Source: Propionibacteriaceae bacterium
GTDB lineage: Bacteria > Actinomycetota > Actinomycetes > Propionibacteriales > Propionibacteriaceae
NCBI GenBank assembly: GCA_031261485.1
Contig: JAISJO010000019.1
Location: 1-64,000 of the forward strand
Length of the DNA stretch: 64,000 bases
Reading direction: 5' to 3'
The notes under the pieces are model-generated. The model was given only the letters and a program-made list of their open reading frames with translations, ran no database searches and was not told the origin of the DNA. The first letter of the stretch is position 1. The number at the start of each line of letters is the position of its first letter. A program made the translations under genes and the position numbers. Positions 47,404 through 57,326 of this stretch are shown here, piece by piece.

Positions 47404-48408
47404 TCAGCGCACCTTGACCCTGCCCACGAGTTCCCTCAGCGTCTCTTCGGAGCTGCGCTCCCCCGCCACTTGGGCCAAGCGATGGCCCCAGACATAGGGC
47501 ACCATCTTCTGCACATCGTCCGGAATGACGAAGCGACGAGACTCCAAGGCGGCTGCTCCCTTGGCAGCACGCAATAACTGAATGCCGGCACGCGGAGACA
47601 CGCCCAGTCGCACACCGGGCAAGTCACGAGTCGCGCGAGCCAGGTCCACGATGTACTGCTTGATCGCCTGCGAGGCATGCAGACTTCGCACTGAGGCGAT
47701 GAGGCCGCTGACATCTGAGGCGGTGATAACAGGGCGAACATCGTCCAAGGGGTCGCTCAGTTCCTGCGAATCCAACATGAGCAATTCGTCATTGTAGGAC
47801 GGATATCCCAAGGACATGCGGATCATGAAGCGGTCGCGTTGGGCTTCTGGCAGGGGGTACGTTCCCTCCATCTCGAAGGGATTCTGGGTGGCGATGACTA
47901 TGAACATGCCCGGCAGTGGCAGAGTCACCCCATCCACCGTCACCTGCTTTTCCTGCATGGCTTCCAACATTGCCGATTGTGTCTTCGGCGAGGCGCGGTT
48001 GATCTCGTCAGCAATGACCACGTTGGCGAATATCGGGCCAGGCGTGAAGTCGAAAGTGCCGGTGGCTTGCCTGTACACCGACACGCCCACGATGTCGGAG
48101 GGCAAGAGGTCGGGGGTGAACTGAATACGGGAGACATGGGCGTCAATCGCACGCCCCAAAGCCCGAGCCAAAGTAGTCTTGCCCGTTCCTGGTACATCCT
48201 CGATGAGCAGATGCCCCTCGCACAGCAGTGCGATGACCGCTAATTCGACCGCCTGCCTATGGCCTTTGAGAACCGTCTCGACGGCATCCACGAGTGAATG
48301 AGGGTCAAAAGCCAAAGTGAGCGGCTTGGGTGCCACGTTCGGCGGATAGGACGGCAAAGGCAAGGAACTCATGCGATAGGCCGCAGATGTGGACACCGGC
48401 TCGGGCAC
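47404..48408 (-). CDS. MoxR-family AAA ATPase
   Basis: This 334-residue ATPase has Walker A EDVPGTGKTTLARAL, Walker B VIADEINRASPKTQ, sensor 1 VIATQNPFEMEGTYPLPEAQRDRF and the lid domain. It is the MRP/MoxR subgroup with chaperone-like activity, usually working with DUF58 and transglutaminase partners as here. GTG start with GGGGGAC upstream; an ATG 12 codons inside (MSSLPLPSYPP) is an alternative. Confidence 0.94.
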   Translation of the reverse strand: MPEPVSTSAAYRMSSLPLPSYPPNVAPKPLTLAFDPHSLVDAVETVLKGHRQAVELAVIALLCEGHLLIEDVPGTGKTTLARALGRAIDAHVSRIQFTPDLLPSDIVGVSVYRQATGTFDFTPGPIFANVVIADEINRASPKTQSAMLEAMQEKQVTVDGVTLPLPGMFIVIATQNPFEMEGTYPLPEAQRDRFMIRMSLGYPSYNDELLMLDSQELSDPLDDVRPVITASDVSGLIASVRSLHASQAIKQYIVDLARATRDLPGVRLGVSPRAGIQLLRAAKGAAALESRRFVIPDDVQKMVPYVWGHRLAQVAGERSSEETLRELVGRVKVR

Positions 48409-48607
48409 TAGTGTCCCCCGTCGGAAGGTCGCTGGTTAAGTGAGGCGGTGGATGGGGCCGGGCTGGCAAGGCGGAGGAGGGAGGCGATGTGGGTGCATCG
48501 TCGACCGACGACAACGCAGTCCAGCGTGGTTCCAGCCACCGAATCATCAAGCAGACTTCCGACGTGGGACACCAGGACCTACCTCTCAATTGCCCGCGTG
48601 GGGGAAT

Positions 48608-49018
48608 CTACTCCTCCAGAGCATCATGGTCAATACGTGACAATGCTGCCTTCCAACGAGCCGTGACCTTGGTGACATCGAAATCAGTGTTGGAATGGTC
48701 GTGGGTCAGTGTGATCTTCGTCTGAGAGTCGGTGAGCGGCGTGAGTGTGACCTCGACCCATGTCTTGGGGGAGTCGTCGTCCTTGTGCCAGGAGAAACGG
48801 ATTTCTTCGAGGGGGTGGTACGAACGAGTCACTCCCCACGTCCCATCAGTCGCTTTCCATCTATCGCCTTTGTCGCCTAGCAACGCACCCTCGCCGAGAA
48901 GGGCTTCTTGACCCTCTGCTGAAAGTAAGACTGCCCACACGCGCTTCACAGGGTACGCCACCACTCGTGAGACCACGGTGGTGACCGATGCGTTGGAATC
49001 TGCGACTTGCTCCGTCAT
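48608..49018 (-). CDS. SRPBCC (AHSA1-like) domain protein
   Basis: This 136-residue protein has the START/SRPBCC pattern: SRVVAYPVKRVWAVL, then WGVTRSYHPLEEIRFSWHKDD, WVEVTLTPL and KITLTHDHSN. Proteins of the AHSA1 branch bind hydrophobic ligands or activate chaperones. The function here is unknown. Start MTEQVADS is preceded by AGAGAGG; a longer frame reaches into the promoter of the divergent lipoprotein. Confidence 0.88.
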   Translation of the reverse strand: MTEQVADSNASVTTVVSRVVAYPVKRVWAVLLSAEGQEALLGEGALLGDKGDRWKATDGTWGVTRSYHPLEEIRFSWHKDDDSPKTWVEVTLTPLTDSQTKITLTHDHSNTDFDVTKVTARWKAALSRIDHDALEE

Positions 49019-49136
49019 GATTAGACCTCTCTGTATCCTGGGCTTCATTGCCCTAGGCAAAACCCTACCCTGCTCGGACCGAAGTTGGAAGATGATTCGC
49101 ACCCTTTCTCCGCCGGGTCCCACTGTTCATTCCCGA

Positions 49137-49142
49137 TACGAT
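49137..49142 (+). promoter_or_regulatory. -10 box of a leaderless lipoprotein transcript
   Basis: TACGAT ends 6 bases before the ATG, so the predicted start of transcription is the A of the start codon; no Shine-Dalgarno precedes it. No good -35 was found. Confidence 0.5.
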
Positions 49143-49148
49143 GGTGTC

Positions 49149-50039
49149 ATGGGATGCGGACGAATCTTGGGCACTGCCGCGGTTGCAGTGTGTCTTGCCT
49201 TGTCGGGATGTGGTCCTGTGCCTGATCCCACTCCCGAGACCCCGACAGTCGTCGTCGACCTCACCACTGGTCAGGCCAAAGGGGCCATTGAGGATCTCAT
49301 GGAGGCCGCTGGCTCCACTCGGGTCATCAACGTGGAAATCAGCAGGTACGAAGCCAAACTCGCTGTGGTCACGGGCTTTGGCGCCACTACCTATGCTTGG
49401 CGCTCTGGGCAGGTTCAAGTCATTGATTCCGACACTGCCTACGTCGGCCAAGCCATTTTCGACCCCCGCCAGACCTGGCCCGATGATATTGCGTCCCTTT
49501 GGGAGAAGGCCGCGCAAGTCTCGGGGTCGGACACCGAACAGAAGCTCCAGATGGTCGACTATGATCAAGGCGCGGTGTACATCTGCATCACCACGAATCC
49601 TGAATCCATCCCCGTCTTCTTCACTCCAACCGGACGTCTGGTGCGCGCCTTGGACCCCGCCTCGGTCCTCGATCTCGCCGCCGCGCTGAACGAAGTGGCC
49701 CCGGATGGACCGGTCGTGCGAATCGGCATCAGCCCGCAGGGCGGAGTGTGGGCAGAGGTCGAAGGCGGGTCAGGACAGGTGTGGCGCTCCACTCGGGACA
49801 GGCAATTCCCCGTTCGACACCAGATGCGGGCTGACTCGGGTGGACTGGAAAGCTTCGACCCCGACCCGGTCAGCGCCTATGGGGTGCTGACAGCGGTTGA
49901 CGCCGTCGGGGCCCAACTCGGTTTGCAGGACTCAACGTGGTCCGTGGAAGTGCGCGTTGACAAGGGCGAACCCTGTCTCTTTGTCACGATGGGAGCACGT
50001 ACAGTTCGTGCAAGTCTGGCCGGAGTCATCCTCGAGTAG
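49149..50039 (+). CDS. Lipoprotein of unknown function
   Basis: This 296-residue protein has a lipoprotein signal (RILGTAAVAVCLALSGC, Cys21) and a Pro/Thr linker (PVPDPTPETPT). The mature part is about 260 residues with a repeated mixed pattern (YVGQAIFDPRQTWPDD, GAVYICITTNPESIPVFFTPTG). No family recognised. Upstream in-frame codons exist but lie in the divergent gene; the leaderless ATG fits the signal peptide best. Confidence 0.82.
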   Translation: MGCGRILGTAAVAVCLALSGCGPVPDPTPETPTVVVDLTTGQAKGAIEDLMEAAGSTRVINVEISRYEAKLAVVTGFGATTYAWRSGQVQVIDSDTAYVGQAIFDPRQTWPDDIASLWEKAAQVSGSDTEQKLQMVDYDQGAVYICITTNPESIPVFFTPTGRLVRALDPASVLDLAAALNEVAPDGPVVRIGISPQGGVWAEVEGGSGQVWRSTRDRQFPVRHQMRADSGGLESFDPDPVSAYGVLTAVDAVGAQLGLQDSTWSVEVRVDKGEPCLFVTMGARTVRASLAGVILE

Positions 50040-50087
50040 CGCACGCCGACAGTCCGCCGCATGCGCACGGCGGACTGACGAGTTTGC

Positions 50088-51143
50088 CTAGTCTGTGTAG
50101 ACGACGGGCTTGATGAGGTCGGCAGGCTTCTGGTCCATCATGAGGAATGCATCTTCAATCTTGTCAAAGCCCTTGAATGTGTGAGTGATGAGCTTAGTCG
50201 TGTCCACGCGACCGTGCTTGATGAGTTCTTGCATGCGGATGATGCGCTCGGCACCACCGGGGCAGAAGCCGCCTCGAATGTCCTTGTGCGCCATACCAAG
50301 ACCCCACAGGTAGGCCGGCATGCTCAGAACGTCGGTCACGTCAAAGAAGTTGACGTTGGAGATGATTCCCATCTCCTTGGTCATTGCGACGGCCTGGGTG
50401 AAGGTTGTCTTGTCACCGCCGGCGATGATGGTCTTGTTGGACCCGCCGCCGGTGAGTTCGTGAACCTTCTCGACAATGTCGCCGTCTTTGTAGCTGATCA
50501 GGTCAGTGGCGCCGTACTCGGTCGCCACCTTGCGGCAGTTGGGACGTGTGCCGACGGCGATAATCTGACCCGCTCCAGCCAGCGCCGCGCCCGCAACCGC
50601 CATAAGGCCCACCGGGCCAATACCGATGACGACAACCTTGTCGCCATACTCGATCTCAGCCTGCTCAACACCGTGAAAACCAGTGGACATCATGTCGACG
50701 GTCAGGAGTGCCGCTTCAGGCGAGACACCCTCCAGCAGAGGCGCCAGGTTGGCATCCGCGAAATTGACATGGAATACCTCTCCAAAAACGCCATCCTTTG
50801 CGCCAAGAAACTTGAAACTCTTGAGCATTCCGACGTCGTGGGAGAAGGATTTGAAGTTTTGCACGCCCAACTCGTTCCAATCGGGGGTACAGCAGGGCAC
50901 CACAACAAAATCGCCTGGCTTGAACTTCGTGACAAGTTCGCCAACCTCGACAACCTCGCCGACCGCCTCATGACCCAAAATAAGGTTGAACTTGGGACCA
51001 TTTCCACCATGCATGACGTGAGTGTCCGAACTGCAAGGCGCCACAATCGTGGGGCGAACCAGAGCATCGAGCGGCCCGCACACAGGTCGCGGATTGTCGA
51101 GCCAGCCAGGTTTTCCGATTTCAATCATGCCGTAACCCTTCAT
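50088..51143 (-). CDS. NADP-dependent secondary (isopropanol-type) alcohol dehydrogenase
   Basis: At 351 residues this matches the zinc-dependent secondary alcohol dehydrogenases of Thermoanaerobacter and Clostridium beijerinckii along its length: MKGYGMIEIGKPGWLDNPRP, VAPCSSDTHVMHGG, ILGHEAVGEVVEVG, DMMSTGFHGVEQAEI, IKGGFCPGG-like KDIRGGFCPGG, and LIKPVV at the end. Catalytic zinc ligands Cys37, His59 and the Asp of TVDMM are present, and the structural-zinc cysteines are absent as in that group. GTRPN after the Rossmann GIGPVG fits NADP. It would interconvert ketones such as acetone and secondary alcohols. Start follows GGGAGGTAA. Confidence 0.93.
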   Translation of the reverse strand: MKGYGMIEIGKPGWLDNPRPVCGPLDALVRPTIVAPCSSDTHVMHGGNGPKFNLILGHEAVGEVVEVGELVTKFKPGDFVVVPCCTPDWNELGVQNFKSFSHDVGMLKSFKFLGAKDGVFGEVFHVNFADANLAPLLEGVSPEAALLTVDMMSTGFHGVEQAEIEYGDKVVVIGIGPVGLMAVAGAALAGAGQIIAVGTRPNCRKVATEYGATDLISYKDGDIVEKVHELTGGGSNKTIIAGGDKTTFTQAVAMTKEMGIISNVNFFDVTDVLSMPAYLWGLGMAHKDIRGGFCPGGAERIIRMQELIKHGRVDTTKLITHTFKGFDKIEDAFLMMDQKPADLIKPVVYTD

Positions 51144-51385
51144 ATGGATTACCTCCCTTTCCCGCAGGTATGTCTCCTCATTGAGAAATCCCCAAAATGA
51201 GCAATCTAGGGCCATTATATGCCGTATCTGTTCTATTCGCTGGATTGTGCCTTGAACCGCGCGACCGGGACAATGCCAAATATGGCACGCCTGCCCGATT
51301 GCCCACATTGCCGGACGAAAGAAACCGGGTGCAACACTGCACTTCGTCAGCCTGGCCCTGACGCGACACTCATTGGCCCTTGGGG
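51144..51385. promoter_or_regulatory. Promoter region of the alcohol dehydrogenase
   Basis: This 240-base gap contains a small palindrome, TGCCA-AATA-TGGCA, near 51274-51287, which could be an operator. No gene was found. Assigning the palindrome a role is inference. Confidence 0.35.
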
Positions 51386-52201
51386 TCAGGGTTTCGGCTT
51401 GGGCCGTACCGCCGCGTACACACTGCGGATCACTAGAGCCGTGAGATAGACACTGAAGCACGCTTGAGCGATCTGCGGGCTGAGAATCTTGGCGACCATG
51501 GCTCCGATGGGCGTCATGCAGCAGGCCGCAACCCCGACGACAAGACCAGCGCGAATGTCCACCAGTTTGCGACGGATGTTGGAGTAGGTCCCAGAAGCCG
51601 CGCCGGGGATCATCATCAATAGGGACGTGCCTTTGGCCACCAAGTCACTGGCCCCGAAGAGCAGAGCGAGTGCCGGGACGACGATGATGCCGCCACCAAT
51701 ACCGAGAAGCCCGGACAGTGAACCGGTGACTATCCCCAGAACCAGCAGACCCAAGCCAGAGGCAACATTGATGGCGACTTCAGAATCCCTGGAGGGAATG
51801 AAGACAAGTTGCTGGACGATGACCAGCACGAGGAACCCCACGAACGCCCACCGCAGGGCCTTCTCCGGCAGTCTGGACAGCAAGAATGAGCCTGCTTGGG
51901 CCCCGATGACCATGCCGACAGCTAACAGCAATGCCGCAACGTAGTTGACATTCGAACTGAGCGCGTAGGTTGTCACGCCGACAATGGCGGTGGGAATGAT
52001 CGCCACCAAAGATGTTGCGGAGGCTCGGCGTTGGGTCAGCCCGACGAAAACCAATGCTGGAACGATCACCGTCCCACCACCGATACCGAAAAGGCCGGAG
52101 AGGAAACCAGCGACAAGGCCAACAGCAACAAACACCGAAACACTTCGAAGCGACAGTGCGGTGAGAGGTGGCTCGGAAGGCACTGCAGGCGTGGATTCCA
52201 T
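51386..52201 (-). CDS. TauE/SafE-family membrane exporter
   Basis: The 271-residue protein has eight predicted helices in two repeated halves, each beginning with the family motif: GLVAGFLSGLFGIGGGTVIVP at the N-terminal half and GSLSGLLGIGGGIIVVPALA in the second. Members export sulfonates, sulfite or related anions; the substrate cannot be told. TAGAAT lies 7 bases before the ATG and no proper Shine-Dalgarno is present, so the message may be leaderless. Confidence 0.92.
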   Translation of the reverse strand: MESTPAVPSEPPLTALSLRSVSVFVAVGLVAGFLSGLFGIGGGTVIVPALVFVGLTQRRASATSLVAIIPTAIVGVTTYALSSNVNYVAALLLAVGMVIGAQAGSFLLSRLPEKALRWAFVGFLVLVIVQQLVFIPSRDSEVAINVASGLGLLVLGIVTGSLSGLLGIGGGIIVVPALALLFGASDLVAKGTSLLMMIPGAASGTYSNIRRKLVDIRAGLVVGVAACCMTPIGAMVAKILSPQIAQACFSVYLTALVIRSVYAAVRPKPKP

Positions 52202-52391
52202 GGAGGAGATTCTATCTCCCGCAGTGCGGACTGCCTCTAGTGGTATCGCATGGCGATTGCCCTACGCACAAATGAGAGTCAAAGGGCTAGAGTCATATCA
52301 GGCATTACGCGAGGGGTGTGACTTCGCTGGAACCATTTCTGAAAAAGGTGCCAGATGAAGAGCAAAAGCGCTAGTCAGACCTCGTCCATTC
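52202..52391. other. Divergent intergenic region
   Basis: No gene. It should hold the promoters of the TauE-like gene (minus strand) and the ECF operon (plus strand). I did not identify a known riboswitch. Confidence 0.4.
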
Positions 52392-52426
52392 CCTCGTTTC
52401 GTGCTGACCATTGAAATGAAACGAGG
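52392..52426 (+). promoter_or_regulatory. Hairpin that hides the ECF operon ribosome-binding site
   Basis: CCTCGTTTC and GAAACGAGG form perfect 9-bp arms around a 17-base loop. The GAGG of the right arm is the only Shine-Dalgarno-like sequence upstream of the ATG at 52436. Folding would hide it, so ligand, protein or temperature could control translation. No T-tract follows, which argues against a terminator. Confidence 0.5.
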
Positions 52427-52435
52427 AACAGGCAC

Positions 52436-53002
52436 ATGCCATCTAGTTCTGCGACAATCGCAACTCCACTCATCACAGGAGTGAAAGCCCGCACAATCGC
52501 CACTGCCGCGGCTATCGTCGCCGCTGTCGCGCTCCCCCAGGTACTCCACGGGTTGGGTGCGCTCCTTGGCTTTGGCGCTGGCCCGGCGCAAGCGTTGACT
52601 CCCATGCACATCCCGATCATTCTGGTGGGCTTGCTCGCTGGCCCAACCGTCGGCGTCATCGCTGGCATTGCCAGTCCTCTGCTCGCGTTCGCCCTTTCTG
52701 GTATGCCAGTCGCTGCGCTGTTGCCTTTCATGGTGCTGGAGCTCGCTGCCTACGGTCTGGTCGCCGGACTCCTGGCGAGAGTCAAGATGCACGTCATCCT
52801 CAAGGTCCTCGCCATCCAGATTGCGGGACGCCTCGTGCGCCTTGGAGCCGTTGGTTTCGCTCTCGCCTTCATGGGTGCTCAGTCCCCCTCCCTCGTCTCC
52901 GTCTGGGACGCCACAGTGGTCGGACTGCCTGGCATCATCCTGACGTGGATCGTCGTGCCGCCCATCGTGGGCTGGCTGCAGAAGCGAGGCCTGACCAAGT
53001 GA
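52436..53002 (+). CDS. ECF transporter S component
   Basis: This 188-residue membrane protein has five or six helices and reads as an S component of an energy-coupling-factor transporter: ALTPMHIPIILVGLLAGPTVG resembles the conserved PMHIPVllaGl stretch of the FolT/PanT/CbrT-like class. Its ATPase and T partners are not in the window; a shared ECF module is likely. The substrate is unknown. The gene is followed by DUF1893 and DUF362 genes with overlapping starts. Confidence 0.85.
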   Translation: MPSSSATIATPLITGVKARTIATAAAIVAAVALPQVLHGLGALLGFGAGPAQALTPMHIPIILVGLLAGPTVGVIAGIASPLLAFALSGMPVAALLPFMVLELAAYGLVAGLLARVKMHVILKVLAIQIAGRLVRLGAVGFALAFMGAQSPSLVSVWDATVVGLPGIILTWIVVPPIVGWLQKRGLTK

Positions 53003-53499
53003 CGACCGCCGAGTCAGTCAGCGATCTCATTCGCGCCAAGACCCTGTTCGCCACGGGTGAGTACACCTGTGTCTTGGTGAAAGGCGACTCAGTGCTCACT
53101 TCTGCAGCTCGTGGCGTCGCGCCCATGATCGGCTTCATCACTGAGGGCGTCGACCTGCGAGGTTTTTCCGTTGCAGACAAAGTAGTGGGCAAAGCCGCCG
53201 CATTGCTCTTTGCCAAAGCCGAGGTGGGCCAGGTGTACGCCCCACTTGCTTCCCACGCAGCAATCGATGTGCTGGCGAACGCCGGGATTGCGGCCCAATT
53301 CGACACCATCGTCGGGCGCATCTTGAAGTCAGATGGCACAGGCCCGTGCCCGATGGAACAGCAAGTCGCTCACACCGACGATCCCGACACCGCGTACACC
53401 CAACTCAGCGCCGCACTCGCCCAGATGCGAGCCGCGGCCCAGGCCAACCCCACAAACCAATCCTCCCAACAACCCTCGAATCGAGAAAGAAATGACTGA
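52999..53499 (+). CDS. DUF1893-domain protein
   Basis: This 166-residue protein has the DUF1893 domain over residues 5-130: AKTLFATGEYTCVLVKGDSVLTSAARGVAPMIGF and VGKAAALLFAKAEVGQVYAPL, with MEQQVAHTDDPD near the end and GPCPME containing the conserved cysteine. The tail is Gln/Asn-rich. GTG start overlaps the S-component stop (GTGA). Function is not established, but its location supports a shared role with the transporter. Confidence 0.9.
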   Translation: MTTAESVSDLIRAKTLFATGEYTCVLVKGDSVLTSAARGVAPMIGFITEGVDLRGFSVADKVVGKAAALLFAKAEVGQVYAPLASHAAIDVLANAGIAAQFDTIVGRILKSDGTGPCPMEQQVAHTDDPDTAYTQLSAALAQMRAAAQANPTNQSSQQPSNRERND

Positions 53500-54349
53500 C
53501 ACAGGCACACCCAAGGTCTACTTCACCCAAGACATCAGCCCAGCAGGCCTCGTCGCCATCTTTGAAGCACTGGGACGGGCCCTACCCGGCAGAGTGGCCG
53601 TCAAGATACACATGGGCGAGGCTGGCAACCAGAATTACCTGCGCCCCGAGTTGGTGCATGACCTCGTCACCGCCGTCGATGGGACGTTCGTTGATTCGAA
53701 CACCTTCTACGGTGGTCAGCGTTCCGACGCGGCCTCACACCTCAAGGTCGCCACCGAGCATGGTTTCACCTATGCCCCAGTGGACATCTTGGACGCAGAT
53801 GGCGATATCTCCATCCCGGTCACCGGCGGGAAGCGCCAGACTGAGGCTGTGGTCGGAGCCCACTTCGCCGACTACGACTCCGTCTTGTCCATCGCCCACT
53901 TCAAAGGTCATGGGATGGCTGGCTTCGGCGGAACGTTCAAGAACCTGGCCGTCGGCATCGCATCCTCAGCGGGCAAGGGCATCATTCACGGGACAGGCTT
54001 CTCGCTGCATGGCGAAGACTTCCTGAGCAATGTTGTTGAGTACGCCAAAGCGATCATCGACTCCAAGGAAGACACCATCGTCTACATCAACATCCTCAAC
54101 AATCTCTCCACCGATTGCGACTGTGATGGGAATGCCCCCCAGGCCGAATTGGACGACATTGGCATTCTCGGCTCTCTCGACCCAGTGGCCATCGACCGCG
54201 CCTCAGTCGACCAGATCTATGCCGCCCCCGCCGACAAAGGCAAGCACCTGCGCGAGCGCATCGAACGCCAAAACGGGACGTACCTGCTCGACTACGCCGA
54301 AGAGTTGGGCATTGGTTCCCAGACGTACGAACTGGTGAGCCTCGACTGA
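53492..54349 (+). CDS. DUF362-domain protein
   Basis: This 285-residue protein belongs to DUF362: VYFTQDISPAGLVAIFEALG, IHMGEAGNQNYLRPELV, GGTFKNLAVGIASSAGKGIIHG and DCDCDGNAPQAELDDIGILGSLDPVAID. The family is often linked to ferredoxin-like proteins, but the four-cysteine Fe-S motif is absent here; only the pair in DCDCDG is seen. It starts 8 bases before the DUF1893 stop. AAAGAAATG has no good Shine-Dalgarno, so coupling is likely. Confidence 0.92.
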   Translation: MTDTGTPKVYFTQDISPAGLVAIFEALGRALPGRVAVKIHMGEAGNQNYLRPELVHDLVTAVDGTFVDSNTFYGGQRSDAASHLKVATEHGFTYAPVDILDADGDISIPVTGGKRQTEAVVGAHFADYDSVLSIAHFKGHGMAGFGGTFKNLAVGIASSAGKGIIHGTGFSLHGEDFLSNVVEYAKAIIDSKEDTIVYINILNNLSTDCDCDGNAPQAELDDIGILGSLDPVAIDRASVDQIYAAPADKGKHLRERIERQNGTYLLDYAEELGIGSQTYELVSLD

Positions 54350-54520
54350 CGCGACGGAAGTCTTCCACGACTAGGTCATCGGCTGAGAGTGGCAAAGCCT
54401 TGGGTGTGGCCCAGTCGGCATAGTCGGCATGGTCGAATCAGGGAGCAATCGGGGTCGTTCGACCCTGGTGGCTGCGCAAACAGGTGTAAAATTGTTTGAG
54501 AACTCAAGTAAAGGAGTCTC
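54350..54520. other. Intergenic gap
   Basis: 171 bases, no gene. The right end carries the ribosome-binding site AAAGGAG for the next gene. Confidence 0.4.
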
Positions 54521-55537
54521 GTGACGAATCCCGTTCTGGCCAAGTCTTCGGCCTTTTCGCCTGACTATGCGGCCGCGCAGCCTTACGTGCAGCAGCCCTA
54601 CGCGCAGCAGGGATACCCCCCGCAGGGCTATCCTCAGCAGGGGTATGGGCAGGTCTACACCGACCCCTACGGCAATGTGGTCCAGCCTCCGCAGGGTCAG
54701 CCCTACCCCCCGCAGGGCCAGCCCTATCCTCAGCAGGGTTATGGGCAGGCCCCGTACGCTCCGCAACCGGGCAGCCCCTATGCGCCGGTGCCTCCGCAGA
54801 CCTGGAACGTCCCCAGTCGGAATACCAACCAGAAAGTCATGACCTTGGACGATGTGCTGACCAAGTCCGCCATCACCATCGGTTTGGTCATCGTCGTGGC
54901 TGCCCTCACGATGTGGTCCCTGACTCCTCTGCGCGGAGTTCTCGGCGCCCAGACTGCTATGGGTGCCATCTTGGTCACAGGGATTGTGTGCGGCCTGGCC
55001 ACCATCATTTTCCCCTTCATCGCCGCAGCGCGCCGCAAGGTCGGCCCTGGAATCGCGCTGACATTCGCCGTTCTCGAGGGCATCTTCCTAGGGGCCTTCT
55101 CGCTCATCTTTGAGTTGGCCTACCCCGGGATTGTGATGCAGGCGGTCGTCGCCACCTTTGTCGCAGCAGGTCTCGTCCTGTTGGCCTTCAAGTTCGGCAA
55201 GATTCGCTTGTCCTCCAAGGTGCGCAAGGTCGTCATGCTGTCCATGTTCGCCTATGTGGGCGTGGCTCTGGTCAGTTTCGTGCTCTTGCTCTTCCGAGTG
55301 GACCTCGGTCTGTTCCCAGGACCTGGTCAGCCCGTGAGTTGGCTGGCATGGTTGGCCGCTGGTGTGGGTGTCGTCCTCGCAGTTCTGAGCCTCGTCGACG
55401 ACTTCCAATATGTCGAGCAGGGCATCGCCAATCGTCTGCCCGCCTCCGAGTCGTGGAGAGCAGCCTATGGCCTGACCGTCACTCTGGTGTGGCTTTACGT
55501 CAACCTGCTGCGGATTCTCTCCTACCTGCGTAGGTAA
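54521..55537 (+). CDS. Bax1-I/YccA-like membrane protein with PQQG-rich N-terminus
   Basis: The C-terminal 230 residues have seven helices of the Bax-inhibitor-1/YccA type, e.g. LEGIFLGAFSLIFELAYPGIVMQ and VLAVLSLVDDFQYVEQGI. The N-terminal 100 residues are a low-complexity tail of Tyr-Pro-Gln-Gln-Gly repeats (PYAQQGYPPQGYPQQGYGQ, PYPPQGQPYPQQGYGQ). It resembles actinobacterial proteins with Pro/Tyr/Gln tails, which bind FHA-type or other partners or condense. GTG start after AAAGGAG. Function unknown. Confidence 0.88.
   Translation: MTNPVLAKSSAFSPDYAAAQPYVQQPYAQQGYPPQGYPQQGYGQVYTDPYGNVVQPPQGQPYPPQGQPYPQQGYGQAPYAPQPGSPYAPVPPQTWNVPSRNTNQKVMTLDDVLTKSAITIGLVIVVAALTMWSLTPLRGVLGAQTAMGAILVTGIVCGLATIIFPFIAAARRKVGPGIALTFAVLEGIFLGAFSLIFELAYPGIVMQAVVATFVAAGLVLLAFKFGKIRLSSKVRKVVMLSMFAYVGVALVSFVLLLFRVDLGLFPGPGQPVSWLAWLAAGVGVVLAVLSLVDDFQYVEQGIANRLPASESWRAAYGLTVTLVWLYVNLLRILSYLRR
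54590..54765 (+). repeat. In-gene minisatellite encoding PQQG repeats
   Basis: Imperfect tandem units such as CCGCAGGGCTAT and CCTCAGCAGGGGTATGGGCA recur in the 5' part of the gene. They keep frame; unit number may vary between strains. Confidence 0.7.
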
Positions 55538-55623
55538 TCTTCCCTTCCCCCCTGCGGTGTCTCGTCGGAAACGGCGGGGCACCGTTTTGTTTGAGCCAAG
55601 ACCGTTGGAACCCACGGTTCCCC

Positions 55624-55747
55624 AAGGAACCACTGATTATTGGCAACTTCAACTGTCATTCTGCGCGAAGTCGCAGAATCTACGAATGTCAGATGGATGC
55701 TGCGACTTCGCGCAGCATGACGAGATGCGTTTATCGGTGGTTCCCTA
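55624..55747. mobile_element. MITE-like palindromic element, 124 bp
   Basis: The outer ends AAGGAACCACTGATTAT and TTATCGGTGGTTCCCTA are inverted repeats. Inside, 21-base arms (CATTCTGCGCGAAGTCGCAG at 55657-55676 and its complement at 55700-55720) can form a long hairpin. It has no coding capacity. The core CTGCGCGAAGTCGCAG family is a known type of dispersed intergenic repeat in actinobacteria and other phyla. It lies between the Bax1-I gene and the MFS gene. Confidence 0.75.
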
Positions 55748-55853
55748 GCTCTGATCTATTCACCCGACGGACTCAATCAGTGCTGCCGTGGGCGACACAC
55801 CACCAGACACGGACCTTTCCAAGTCAGTCTCAGCAGGACACTAGACTTGATTG
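55748..55853. other. Upstream region of the MFS gene
   Basis: Contains TAGACT (55842-55847), 6 bases before a GTG at 55854, a leaderless-type arrangement for the MFS gene. Confidence 0.4.
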
Positions 55854-57326
55854 GTGAATGGAACCGAACAGTTGGCTGATCCGAAGCGATGGCGGGCACT
55901 CGTCGTGTGTCTCCTGGGCGGGTTCGTCACCATGCTGTTCCTGTCGATGGTCTCGGTGTCTCTGCCCTCCATCCAGTCCTCCCTGGACGCGAGTCCAGCC
56001 GCCATCCAGGTCGTCGTCGCGGGGTACACCTTGGCCTTCGCCCTGTGTGTCGTGCCCGCTGGACGACTCGGCGATGTACGTGGGCGGCGCACCCTCTTCG
56101 TCATCGGAATGACCGGATTTGGCGTTGTCACGGCCTTGGCAGGCATGAGCAACTCCGCCACCATGCTCGCCTGCTTGCGTGTTCTTCAAGGAGGATTCGC
56201 AGGTCTGGTCAACCCTCAGACCATGGGCATCATTCAGCAAGTGTTTCGCGGACCCGAGCGCGGGAAAGCATTCGGATTCATCGGAGGCGTCATCGGCGTT
56301 GCGACCGCCCTCGGCCCCTTGTGCGGCGGGGCAGCCATCGCCATTTGGGGGCAAAGTGATGGCTGGCGCTGGGCATTCTGGGTCGTCCTGCCGCTTGTGG
56401 CGCTTACTGCCATCCTCGCCTGTTTCTGGCTCCCAGCCAAGACCGAACAGTCAGCCTCGCAACGTCTGGACCCGGTGGGGCTGCTTCTCATCGGTGTCGG
56501 CACCGTCGCCATCATGACTCCTTTCGTTCTCGCTGAGGCTGCTGGGGCGACACCCTGGTGGCTCATCGGTGTCGGGGCCGTCTTCCTCGTGTTCTTTGGC
56601 TTGTGGGAAATGAGGTACCAGAGGAAGTACCAGGCGGCTGTTCTCGACCCAGAGCTTCTGCACAACGTAGGGTTCCGGTTCGGAGTTGGTGTGGGCATGG
56701 CGTACTTCGCCGGGTTCACCTCCGTGTTCCTCGTTGTCACGATGATGTTGCAAGAAGGCCTGGGGTATTCGGCGCTGATGGCCGGACTGGTGGGCGCCTG
56801 TTTCGCGGTCGGTTCTGGGATAGCGGCCCCCATCGCTGGCAGGCTGGTCGCTCGACATGGGCGTGCGATTGTGGTTGCCGCCTTGACCGTCATGGTTGTT
56901 GGTCTAATCATTGTTGATTGCGTCATGCGTTGGGCGCCCACACACTTGTACGGCGTGTGGATCGGCCTCGCCCTCTTCCTCGCTGGCCTGGGCTCAGGCG
57001 CCACCATCTCCCCCAACCAGACCCTCACCTTGATGTCCGTCCCTCCCCGCATCGGTGGAGTCGCTGGCGGGGCCCTCCAAATCGGACAGCAATTGGGGTC
57101 CGCAGTCGGGCTGTCTGTGGTCCTGGCAGGCTATTTCGTGGCTCTGCCCAGCAGCGGTCCCCGAGGAGGGGCGGCACACACCTTGCTGTTTTCCGTTGGC
57201 CTCGTCATCCTCGCCCTCGTCATCGCCTTCATCGACTGGCGGCGCAGGTCCGGGGACGAATCAGGGCCAATCCAGGGCAAGTCCAGGGAAGAGGGAGCGG
57301 GACCGGGAGGTACAGTGGTTCCATGA
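55854..57326 (+). CDS. MFS transporter, DHA2 (14-helix) type
   Basis: This transporter of about 490 residues has 14 helices and the family motifs GRLGDVRGRRTLFVIG (loop 2-3), VLQGGFAGLVNPQTMG (motif C-like region in helix 5) and RYQRKYQAAVLD in the central loop. Such proteins export drugs or metabolites by proton antiport. I set the start at GTG, since TAGACT is 6 bases upstream; the TTG three bases earlier is an alternative. It overlaps the next gene by 4 bases. Confidence 0.9.
   Translation: MNGTEQLADPKRWRALVVCLLGGFVTMLFLSMVSVSLPSIQSSLDASPAAIQVVVAGYTLAFALCVVPAGRLGDVRGRRTLFVIGMTGFGVVTALAGMSNSATMLACLRVLQGGFAGLVNPQTMGIIQQVFRGPERGKAFGFIGGVIGVATALGPLCGGAAIAIWGQSDGWRWAFWVVLPLVALTAILACFWLPAKTEQSASQRLDPVGLLLIGVGTVAIMTPFVLAEAAGATPWWLIGVGAVFLVFFGLWEMRYQRKYQAAVLDPELLHNVGFRFGVGVGMAYFAGFTSVFLVVTMMLQEGLGYSALMAGLVGACFAVGSGIAAPIAGRLVARHGRAIVVAALTVMVVGLIIVDCVMRWAPTHLYGVWIGLALFLAGLGSGATISPNQTLTLMSVPPRIGGVAGGALQIGQQLGSAVGLSVVLAGYFVALPSSGPRGGAAHTLLFSVGLVILALVIAFIDWRRRSGDESGPIQGKSREEGAGPGGTVVP

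Follow-up and report, generated by a model that had tools for sequence, protein, structure and literature searches.

An overlapping operon of an ECF S component, a TM1506 protein and a LarA-related DUF362 protein in a Propionibacteriaceae bacterium

Why would the gene of a micronutrient transporter subunit overlap a TM1506/DUF1893 gene, which in turn overlaps a gene of the DUF362 family? This arrangement occurs in a 64-kb stretch of DNA (hereafter, the window) from a Propionibacteriaceae bacterium whose genome assembly comprises 2.8 Mb on 112 contigs and is 98% complete. The gene-neighbour patterns described here suggest that the trio may supply the DUF362 protein, a relative of the lactate racemase LarA, with a nickel-containing cofactor. 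The three protein families, the Pfam clan of DUF362 and the TM1506 fold are already known; in the open-licence PMC literature, which leaves subscription papers and preprints largely outside, we found no paper proposing that DUF362 proteins use the nickel-pincer nucleotide (NPN) or that an uptake route for NPN exists.

Gene layout and leader hairpin

The genes follow one another on the plus strand, with these features:

52392..52426, plus strand: inverted repeat (hairpin) in the leader, with GAGG in its 3' arm; fold of -19.7 kcal/mol, z-score -3.0
52423..52428, plus strand: GAGGAA, the better Shine-Dalgarno candidate by direct sequence reading, partly within the stem
52436..53002, plus strand: ECF transporter S component, 188 aa; Pfam ECF_trnsprt 40.3 bits (cut-off 30.7)
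52999..53499, plus strand: TM1506/DUF1893 protein, 166 aa, GTG start; Pfam TM1506 126.6 bits (cut-off 27)
53492..54349, plus strand: DUF362 protein, 285 aa, predicted LarA fold (VIA-align), without a ferredoxin domain; Pfam DUF362 144 bits (cut-off 24)

The first-pass annotation of this DNA had named the three families and described overlaps of four bases (GTGA) between the ECF S and TM1506 genes and of eight bases between the TM1506 and DUF362 genes. Re-reading of the coordinates showed the overlaps to be correct, and all three Pfam scores exceed the curated cut-offs. The flanking genes, a divergent TauE-type gene upstream and a Bax-inhibitor-type gene downstream (both by Pfam), are apparently not part of the set. 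The view that the operon is built around a micronutrient (vitamin-type) importer is supported.

The hairpin had been said to hide the only ribosome-binding site of the ECF S gene. The GAGG at 52423-52426, located 9 nt ahead of the ATG, is indeed paired in the stem; "only" is slightly too strong, because a weaker AGG at 52430-52432 lies outside the stem, very near the ATG. One of 200 shuffled sequences folded as well as the hairpin, and the whole 171-nt leader had a z-score of just -2.0. The inverted repeat occurs once in the window, and its exact sequence was present in 5 of 226 loci, every one of them a copy of the window's own locus, which speaks against a conserved switch. A known riboswitch is ruled out by the absence of Rfam matches, with no family up to an E-value of 5 in positions 48000-56000 and no riboswitch in 24 related loci. 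Because the repeat is not conserved and Rfam was empty in the 24 loci, the earlier suggestion of a regulated operon has no support beyond this single sequence.

The DUF362 protein and lactate racemase

The structural model of the DUF362 protein was of middling confidence (pLDDT 75, based on a seven-sequence alignment). When it was compared by VIA-align with the 1000 best Foldseek chains, the top 11 entries were LarA or DUF2088 structures (Z 9.7-11.0, with 181-211 residues aligned at an rmsd of 3.5-5.0), and the next unrelated fold, a methyltransferase, reached a Z of 5.0; the ranking applies to the folds listed by VIA-align. With Foldseek on its own, nothing scored below 0.001; LarA came 18th, with the top query-normalised TM-score among the matches listed. 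When PDB sequences were searched with the profile of DUF362, none matched up to an E-value of 10. Using hhalign with 14 DUF362 and 7 LarA sequences, we obtained an ungapped alignment of three DUF362 residues with three LarA residues (E 1.6e-4, at a probability of only 50%). In LarA, His174 serves as the acid-base residue, Lys184 as the covalent NPN tether and His200 as a nickel ligand, as described in the LarA part of PMC11770544. The corresponding codons of the window are:

53909..53911, plus strand: His140, aligned with LarA His174 (acid-base)
53939..53941, plus strand: Lys150, aligned with LarA Lys184 (covalent NPN tether)
53987..53989, plus strand: His166, aligned with LarA His200 (nickel ligand)

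This His/Lys/His triad, at positions +0/+10/+26, recurred in 60 of 68 DUF362 matches and in all 12 sampled proteins of the ferredoxin type. Among the eight misses, five were second matches from shorter frames without the Lys motif (probably cut by the end of the locus), two had one extra residue and one had Tyr in place of the last His. LarA Arg75, which contacts the phosphate, and His108, the second acid-base residue, lie outside the hhalign region; by eye, they lie opposite Gly42/Glu43 and Tyr73, respectively.

Thus, the window protein shares with LarA (Pfam Lar_N and LarA_C, clan CL0471) the fold as judged by VIA-align and, with the same spacing, counterparts of His174, Lys184 and His200. 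It differs in its length of 285 aa instead of about 430 aa, in the Tyr placed by eye opposite His108 and in belonging to a genome devoid of LarC. As Pfam gave no Lar_N match, with DUF362 the sole family at E <= 0.001, we class the protein as a LarA-clan relative and not as a LarA. The authors of PMC11770544 assigned DUF362 to the same Pfam clan as LarA and took it as an outgroup. Judged from model and profile alignment, the protein is a distant relative of the NPN-dependent lactate racemase and appears to keep the NPN-anchoring residues. The first-pass annotation had called a cofactor or vitamin salvage role plausible. The predicted LarA fold and the anchoring residues make the cofactor part of that proposal more specific; the salvage part is unproven, and the many TM1506 genomes without DUF362 count against it (see below).

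Some clostridial DUF362 proteins are longer. One of them (L118:958-2415; L and G are our handles for loci and genomes) carries a hydrophobic, signal-like stretch at its N-terminus together with a copper-amine-oxidase N domain (125 bits by Pfam), and longer open frames occur likewise in many of the loci L117-L146. With such an N-terminus, a LarA-clan enzyme would be extracellular.

LarC is the last enzyme of NPN synthesis. We analyzed the surroundings of DUF362 in 20 clostridial stretches, assigning LarC, LarB and PP-loop proteins by Pfam. The DUF362 gene was found in one run with larB, larC and larE in four stretches (L148, L149, L154, L162); four others (L147, L159, L160, L161) combine it with one or two of these genes. 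In the former four, it occupies the place where larA would be expected in a larA-larB-larC-larE operon, whereas the window's DUF362 gene is partnered by ECF S and TM1506 genes instead of synthesis genes. The commonest DUF362 partner in the 20 stretches was an ArsP_1-type permease. Across 391 genomes of the clostridial class, LarC was present in 46 of the 76 genomes with DUF362 of this clade, against 31.9 expected (p 4e-4; LarC matches weaker than 1e-20 were left out, which kept 164 of 175), where this and the following co-occurrence counts ignore shared ancestry, use cut-offs set post hoc and include many draft assemblies. LarC is unnecessary for carrying DUF362, since 30 of the 76 genomes lack it. 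In the window's genus, larB, larC and larE occur together in two genomes (G005 and G017, with LarB assigned by Pfam in G005), both of which have DUF362. Fourteen control genomes contained LarC in six cases, DUF362 in five and both in four, including Synechococcus elongatus (p 0.09).

Two further observations concern these surroundings. A protein of approximately 117 aa without a Pfam match adjoins DUF362 in Clostridia and larB-larC-larE in the window's genus (L137:2497-2847, L228:3-410, L229:8110-8487). On the Selenomonas ruminantium plasmid pSRC1 (L234:1192-5426), DUF362 lies amid genes for a carboxymuconolactone decarboxylase, a flavodoxin and an SDR protein, which are the same kinds of neighbours as around clostridial TM1506.

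The ECF S-TM1506 pair and its distribution

The model of the TM1506 protein (pLDDT 92.9) has a deaminase-like fold. Its best Foldseek match was 1vk9, the TM1506 protein of Thermotoga maritima (E 8.8e-11, 27% identity), followed by the DUF1893 protein of Borrelia burgdorferi (9e9a) and then by deaminases, AICAR transformylase and LpxI. Both this match and the Pfam score of 126.6 bits place the window protein in the same DUF1893 family as that of T. maritima, from which it differs by its position after an ECF S gene. Zinc-dependent cytidine deaminases carry conserved His/Cys-Ala-Glu and PCxxC zinc motifs. These are missing from the set of residues invariant in 61 TM1506 sequences, namely G39, A59, D60, V62, V63, G64, A68 and C117, with no His and one Cys, and a canonical zinc deaminase was rejected. 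Two of the invariant residues are encoded as follows:

53176..53178, plus strand: Asp60 of TM1506, invariant in the alignment of 61 sequences
53347..53349, plus strand: Cys117 of TM1506, invariant in the same alignment

No paper was found under DUF1893 in the open-licence PMC literature. The passage on TM1506 in PMC8946771, citing Iyer 2011, describes the family as a third superfamily of ADP-ribosylating enzymes, auto-modified on aspartate. The role reported there agrees with a clostridial fusion of TM1506 and an ADP-ribosylglycohydrolase domain (197 bits; L072:6004-7434). In another clostridial genome, TM1506 is fused to a DNA_alkylation domain (L074:5974-7059).

An alignment of the ECF S component with 37 relatives revealed invariant H38, P56, M57 and E102 and near-invariant His58 and Arg132. 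The protein resembles solitary S components of the FolT/RibU/ThiT type in its ECF_trnsprt score above the cut-off and in its solitary gene; it differs from them in having no NCBIfam specificity match above the cut-off and in its invariant His38 and Glu102. The folate-family S model TIGR04518 matched 16 of the 37 relatives weakly, the best at 58.5 bits against a cut-off of 60. As to the energising module (A and T units), contig C54 carries a double ABC-ATPase gene in the vicinity of a second S gene, with a 443-aa candidate without a Pfam match between them. In two other genomes (G008 and G665), the ECF S gene adjoins a gene of the phosphoribulokinase/uridine-kinase type, which exceeds the Pfam cut-off in G665 only; a kinase at this position would be expected for nucleoside salvage.

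A TM1506 alignment was run against 84,980 species genomes, and the best 80 of at least 364 confirmed loci were retained, mostly from gut Clostridia and some from Olsenella-type actinobacteria. In 51 of these best 80 loci, an ECF S gene was located within 150 nt of TM1506 on the same strand, usually directly upstream and with an overlap of a few bases, and DUF362 was present in six. Because these loci had been picked for likeness to the window, the count was repeated on an even draw, the above 391 clostridial-class genomes, of which 55 have TM1506. The exclusion of G653 and G753, each with a partial TM1506 interrupted by a stop, left 53 loci. An ECF S gene stood within 150 nt in 33 of them, an aldo/keto reductase was near in 19, DUF362 lay within 1600 nt in two and LarC was found in one. 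The contiguous trio occurred in 2 of the 19 genomes of the window's genus (G000 and G015). Measured against the refuting condition of the first-pass annotation, rare co-occurrence of the three families and an unconserved hairpin, the outcome is mixed: ECF S and TM1506 co-occur strongly, the full trio is uncommon and the hairpin is not conserved. ECF S-TM1506 is a conserved two-gene unit, and the trio is one variant of it in which DUF362 is an occasional member.

Gene order varies within the genus, from ECF S-TM1506-DUF362 in the window and DUF362-ECF S-TM1506 in G015 to ECF S-kinase-DUF362 in G008 and DUF362-ECF S in G013. It is very improbable, in our judgement, that mobile single genes came together by chance or recently and have no joint function. 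The confinement of TM1506 to 3 of 57 relatives, all of one genus, would fit such an assembly. So would the similarity of the window's TM1506 protein to those of the same genus (44 and 47%), which does not exceed that to clostridial ones (up to 50%). The 4- and 8-base overlaps, the recurrence of the pair in both sets of loci and the persistence of the same families under a changing gene order argue against it.

Among the other neighbours of the pair, the commonest is an aldo/keto reductase that contains 4Fe-4S dicluster motifs. Its cluster, as in L101:6452-7579, was seen in 35 of the best 80 of at least 364 loci, and the reductase gene also precedes DUF362 in L126 and L130. DUF3842 overlaps or follows TM1506 in L103:6432-6854, L086, L278 and L283, with ECF S next in L103, and is another uncharacterised family tied to this type of importer. 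In G015, a 139-aa open reading frame on the opposite strand, PIN-like by eye, extends into the terminal part of the TM1506 gene (L003:1029-1448).

The window's genome contains DUF362, and no LarC was found in this 98% complete assembly. DUF362 is present in 10 of the 19 genomes of the genus, two of which have LarC, four others ECF S and four neither; the nine genomes without DUF362 have neither LarC nor ECF S (p 0.011). Within the genus, LarC and ECF S are therefore confined to DUF362 genomes and never occur together. In all four ECF S genomes, the gene is close to DUF362, being adjacent in G013 and G015 and separated by one gene in the window and in G008. TM1506 avoids LarC in the 391 clostridial genomes, with 5 co-occurrences observed against 23.1 expected (p 1.6e-8). 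For ECF S, we sampled 30 of the 46 LarC-containing genomes of the DUF362 clade, all 30 without LarC and all 19 of the genus. ECF S was found in 16 of the 30 clade genomes without LarC and in 5 of the 30 with LarC (p 0.006); when TM1506 genomes were removed, the counts were 10 of 24 and 3 of 28 (p 0.022).

The complementarity is not strict. Neither LarC nor TM1506 is present in 24 of the 76 DUF362-clade genomes, and 14 of these 24 also lack ECF S. With the four of ten DUF362 genomes of the genus that have neither LarC nor ECF S, a rule of "LarC or ECF S for each DUF362" had to be rejected. Another 20 genomes with TM1506 loci, analysed separately, included five with LarC, two of them among the six with DUF362. 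TM1506 and DUF362 co-occur at chance level in the clostridial genomes (22 observed, 24.8 expected), and 33 of the 55 TM1506 genomes lack DUF362, which argues that the pair also serves something else. G013 is devoid of LarC, and there the TM1506 gene stops 2 nt short of a true larA (Lar_N, 191.6 bits); L087, which agrees with the G013 contig in length and gene layout, is probably the same genome and was counted once. The proximity of larA to TM1506 as a general rule was rejected, with 1 case in the best 80 of at least 364 loci. In G694, TM1506 lies between a split larC and ECF S, and FolD and formiminotransferase genes follow the pair.

Proposed salvage of a nickel cofactor and the alternatives

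We tentatively propose that the operon combines a LarA-like enzyme, DUF362, with the means of obtaining its micronutrient through NPN salvage. Outside the cell, the ECF S component would bind NPN itself, a precursor of it or its dephosphorylated form. TM1506, whose deaminase-fold superfamily is reported to handle NAD/ADP-ribose, would convert the imported compound into a usable nucleotide, and DUF362 would load NPN on Lys150 for hydride transfer on some substrate. Elsewhere, the task of supply beside the same DUF362 would fall to larB, larC and larE. That salvage of the cofactor replaces its synthesis is an attractive yet unproven interpretation of the way in which LarC and ECF S complement each other. 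The larC beside the pair in G694 does not fit a simple replacement of LarC by the importer, and the TM1506 protein of B. burgdorferi, with no apparent link to NPN, also counts against an NPN role.

A live alternative, which we rate as likely as NPN salvage and hence hold equally tentatively, is that ECF S and TM1506 form a self-contained vitamin uptake unit unrelated to NPN. Its S component would carry perhaps a folate- or pterin-like cargo and TM1506 would process the cargo or ADP-ribosylate something, while DUF362 would be an occasional passenger with a cofactor from another source or one other than NPN. In favour of this view, the pair greatly outnumbers the trio, and more TM1506 genomes are without DUF362 than with it. 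The weak TIGR04518 matches and the FolD and formiminotransferase genes after the pair in G694 point to folate, and the fusion in L072 would fit ADP-ribosylation of the kind mentioned in that part of PMC8946771. This alternative is at odds with the restriction of ECF S in the genus to genomes with DUF362 (4/4) and its exclusion of LarC, and with the single cases in which TM1506 adjoins larA and larC.

We consider it improbable that ECF S imports the substrate of DUF362, for example a 2-hydroxy acid or a vitamin containing this group, which DUF362 would racemise or epimerise. Importer and enzyme do share one operon, and 2-hydroxy acids are the substrates of the characterised LarA homologues according to the portion of PMC11770544 that deals with them. 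Substrate import leaves unexplained, however, both the avoidance of LarC and the ECF S-TM1506 units without DUF362, and the clostridial DUF362 neighbour is usually the ArsP_1-type permease rather than ECF S. Queuosine salvage was also considered; no literature link was found in open-licence PMC.

The locus is a sound small observation. Its hairpin regulation fails, yet it leads to a nickel-cofactor candidate. According to the genome survey in PMC11796402 (mBio), approximately 15% of the analysed genomes have larB, larE and larC without larA, and cyanobacteria make NPN for a yet-to-be-identified protein; the part of the paper that deals with this missing user anticipates that its fold differs from that of LarA. 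A testable candidate for it is DUF362, because the anchoring residues appear to be kept, DUF362 occurs in runs with larB, larC and larE, and S. elongatus has both LarC and DUF362. In contrast to the expectation voiced in that part of PMC11796402, the fold would be the same as that of LarA, with a sequence too distant for recognition. That DUF362, including the widespread ferredoxin type, is the missing NPN-using family of NPN makers without LarA seems to us close to an even question, and the search for the NPN user becomes one of co-expression and mass spectrometry. We are more doubtful that ECF S-TM1506 represents the first route of NPN salvage, in which an importer and a remodelling enzyme would enable LarC-less bacteria to operate NPN enzymes with cofactor that their neighbours release, and slightly more doubtful still that both proposals hold together. 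If salvage proves true, NPN would join the vitamins that are traded among anaerobes.
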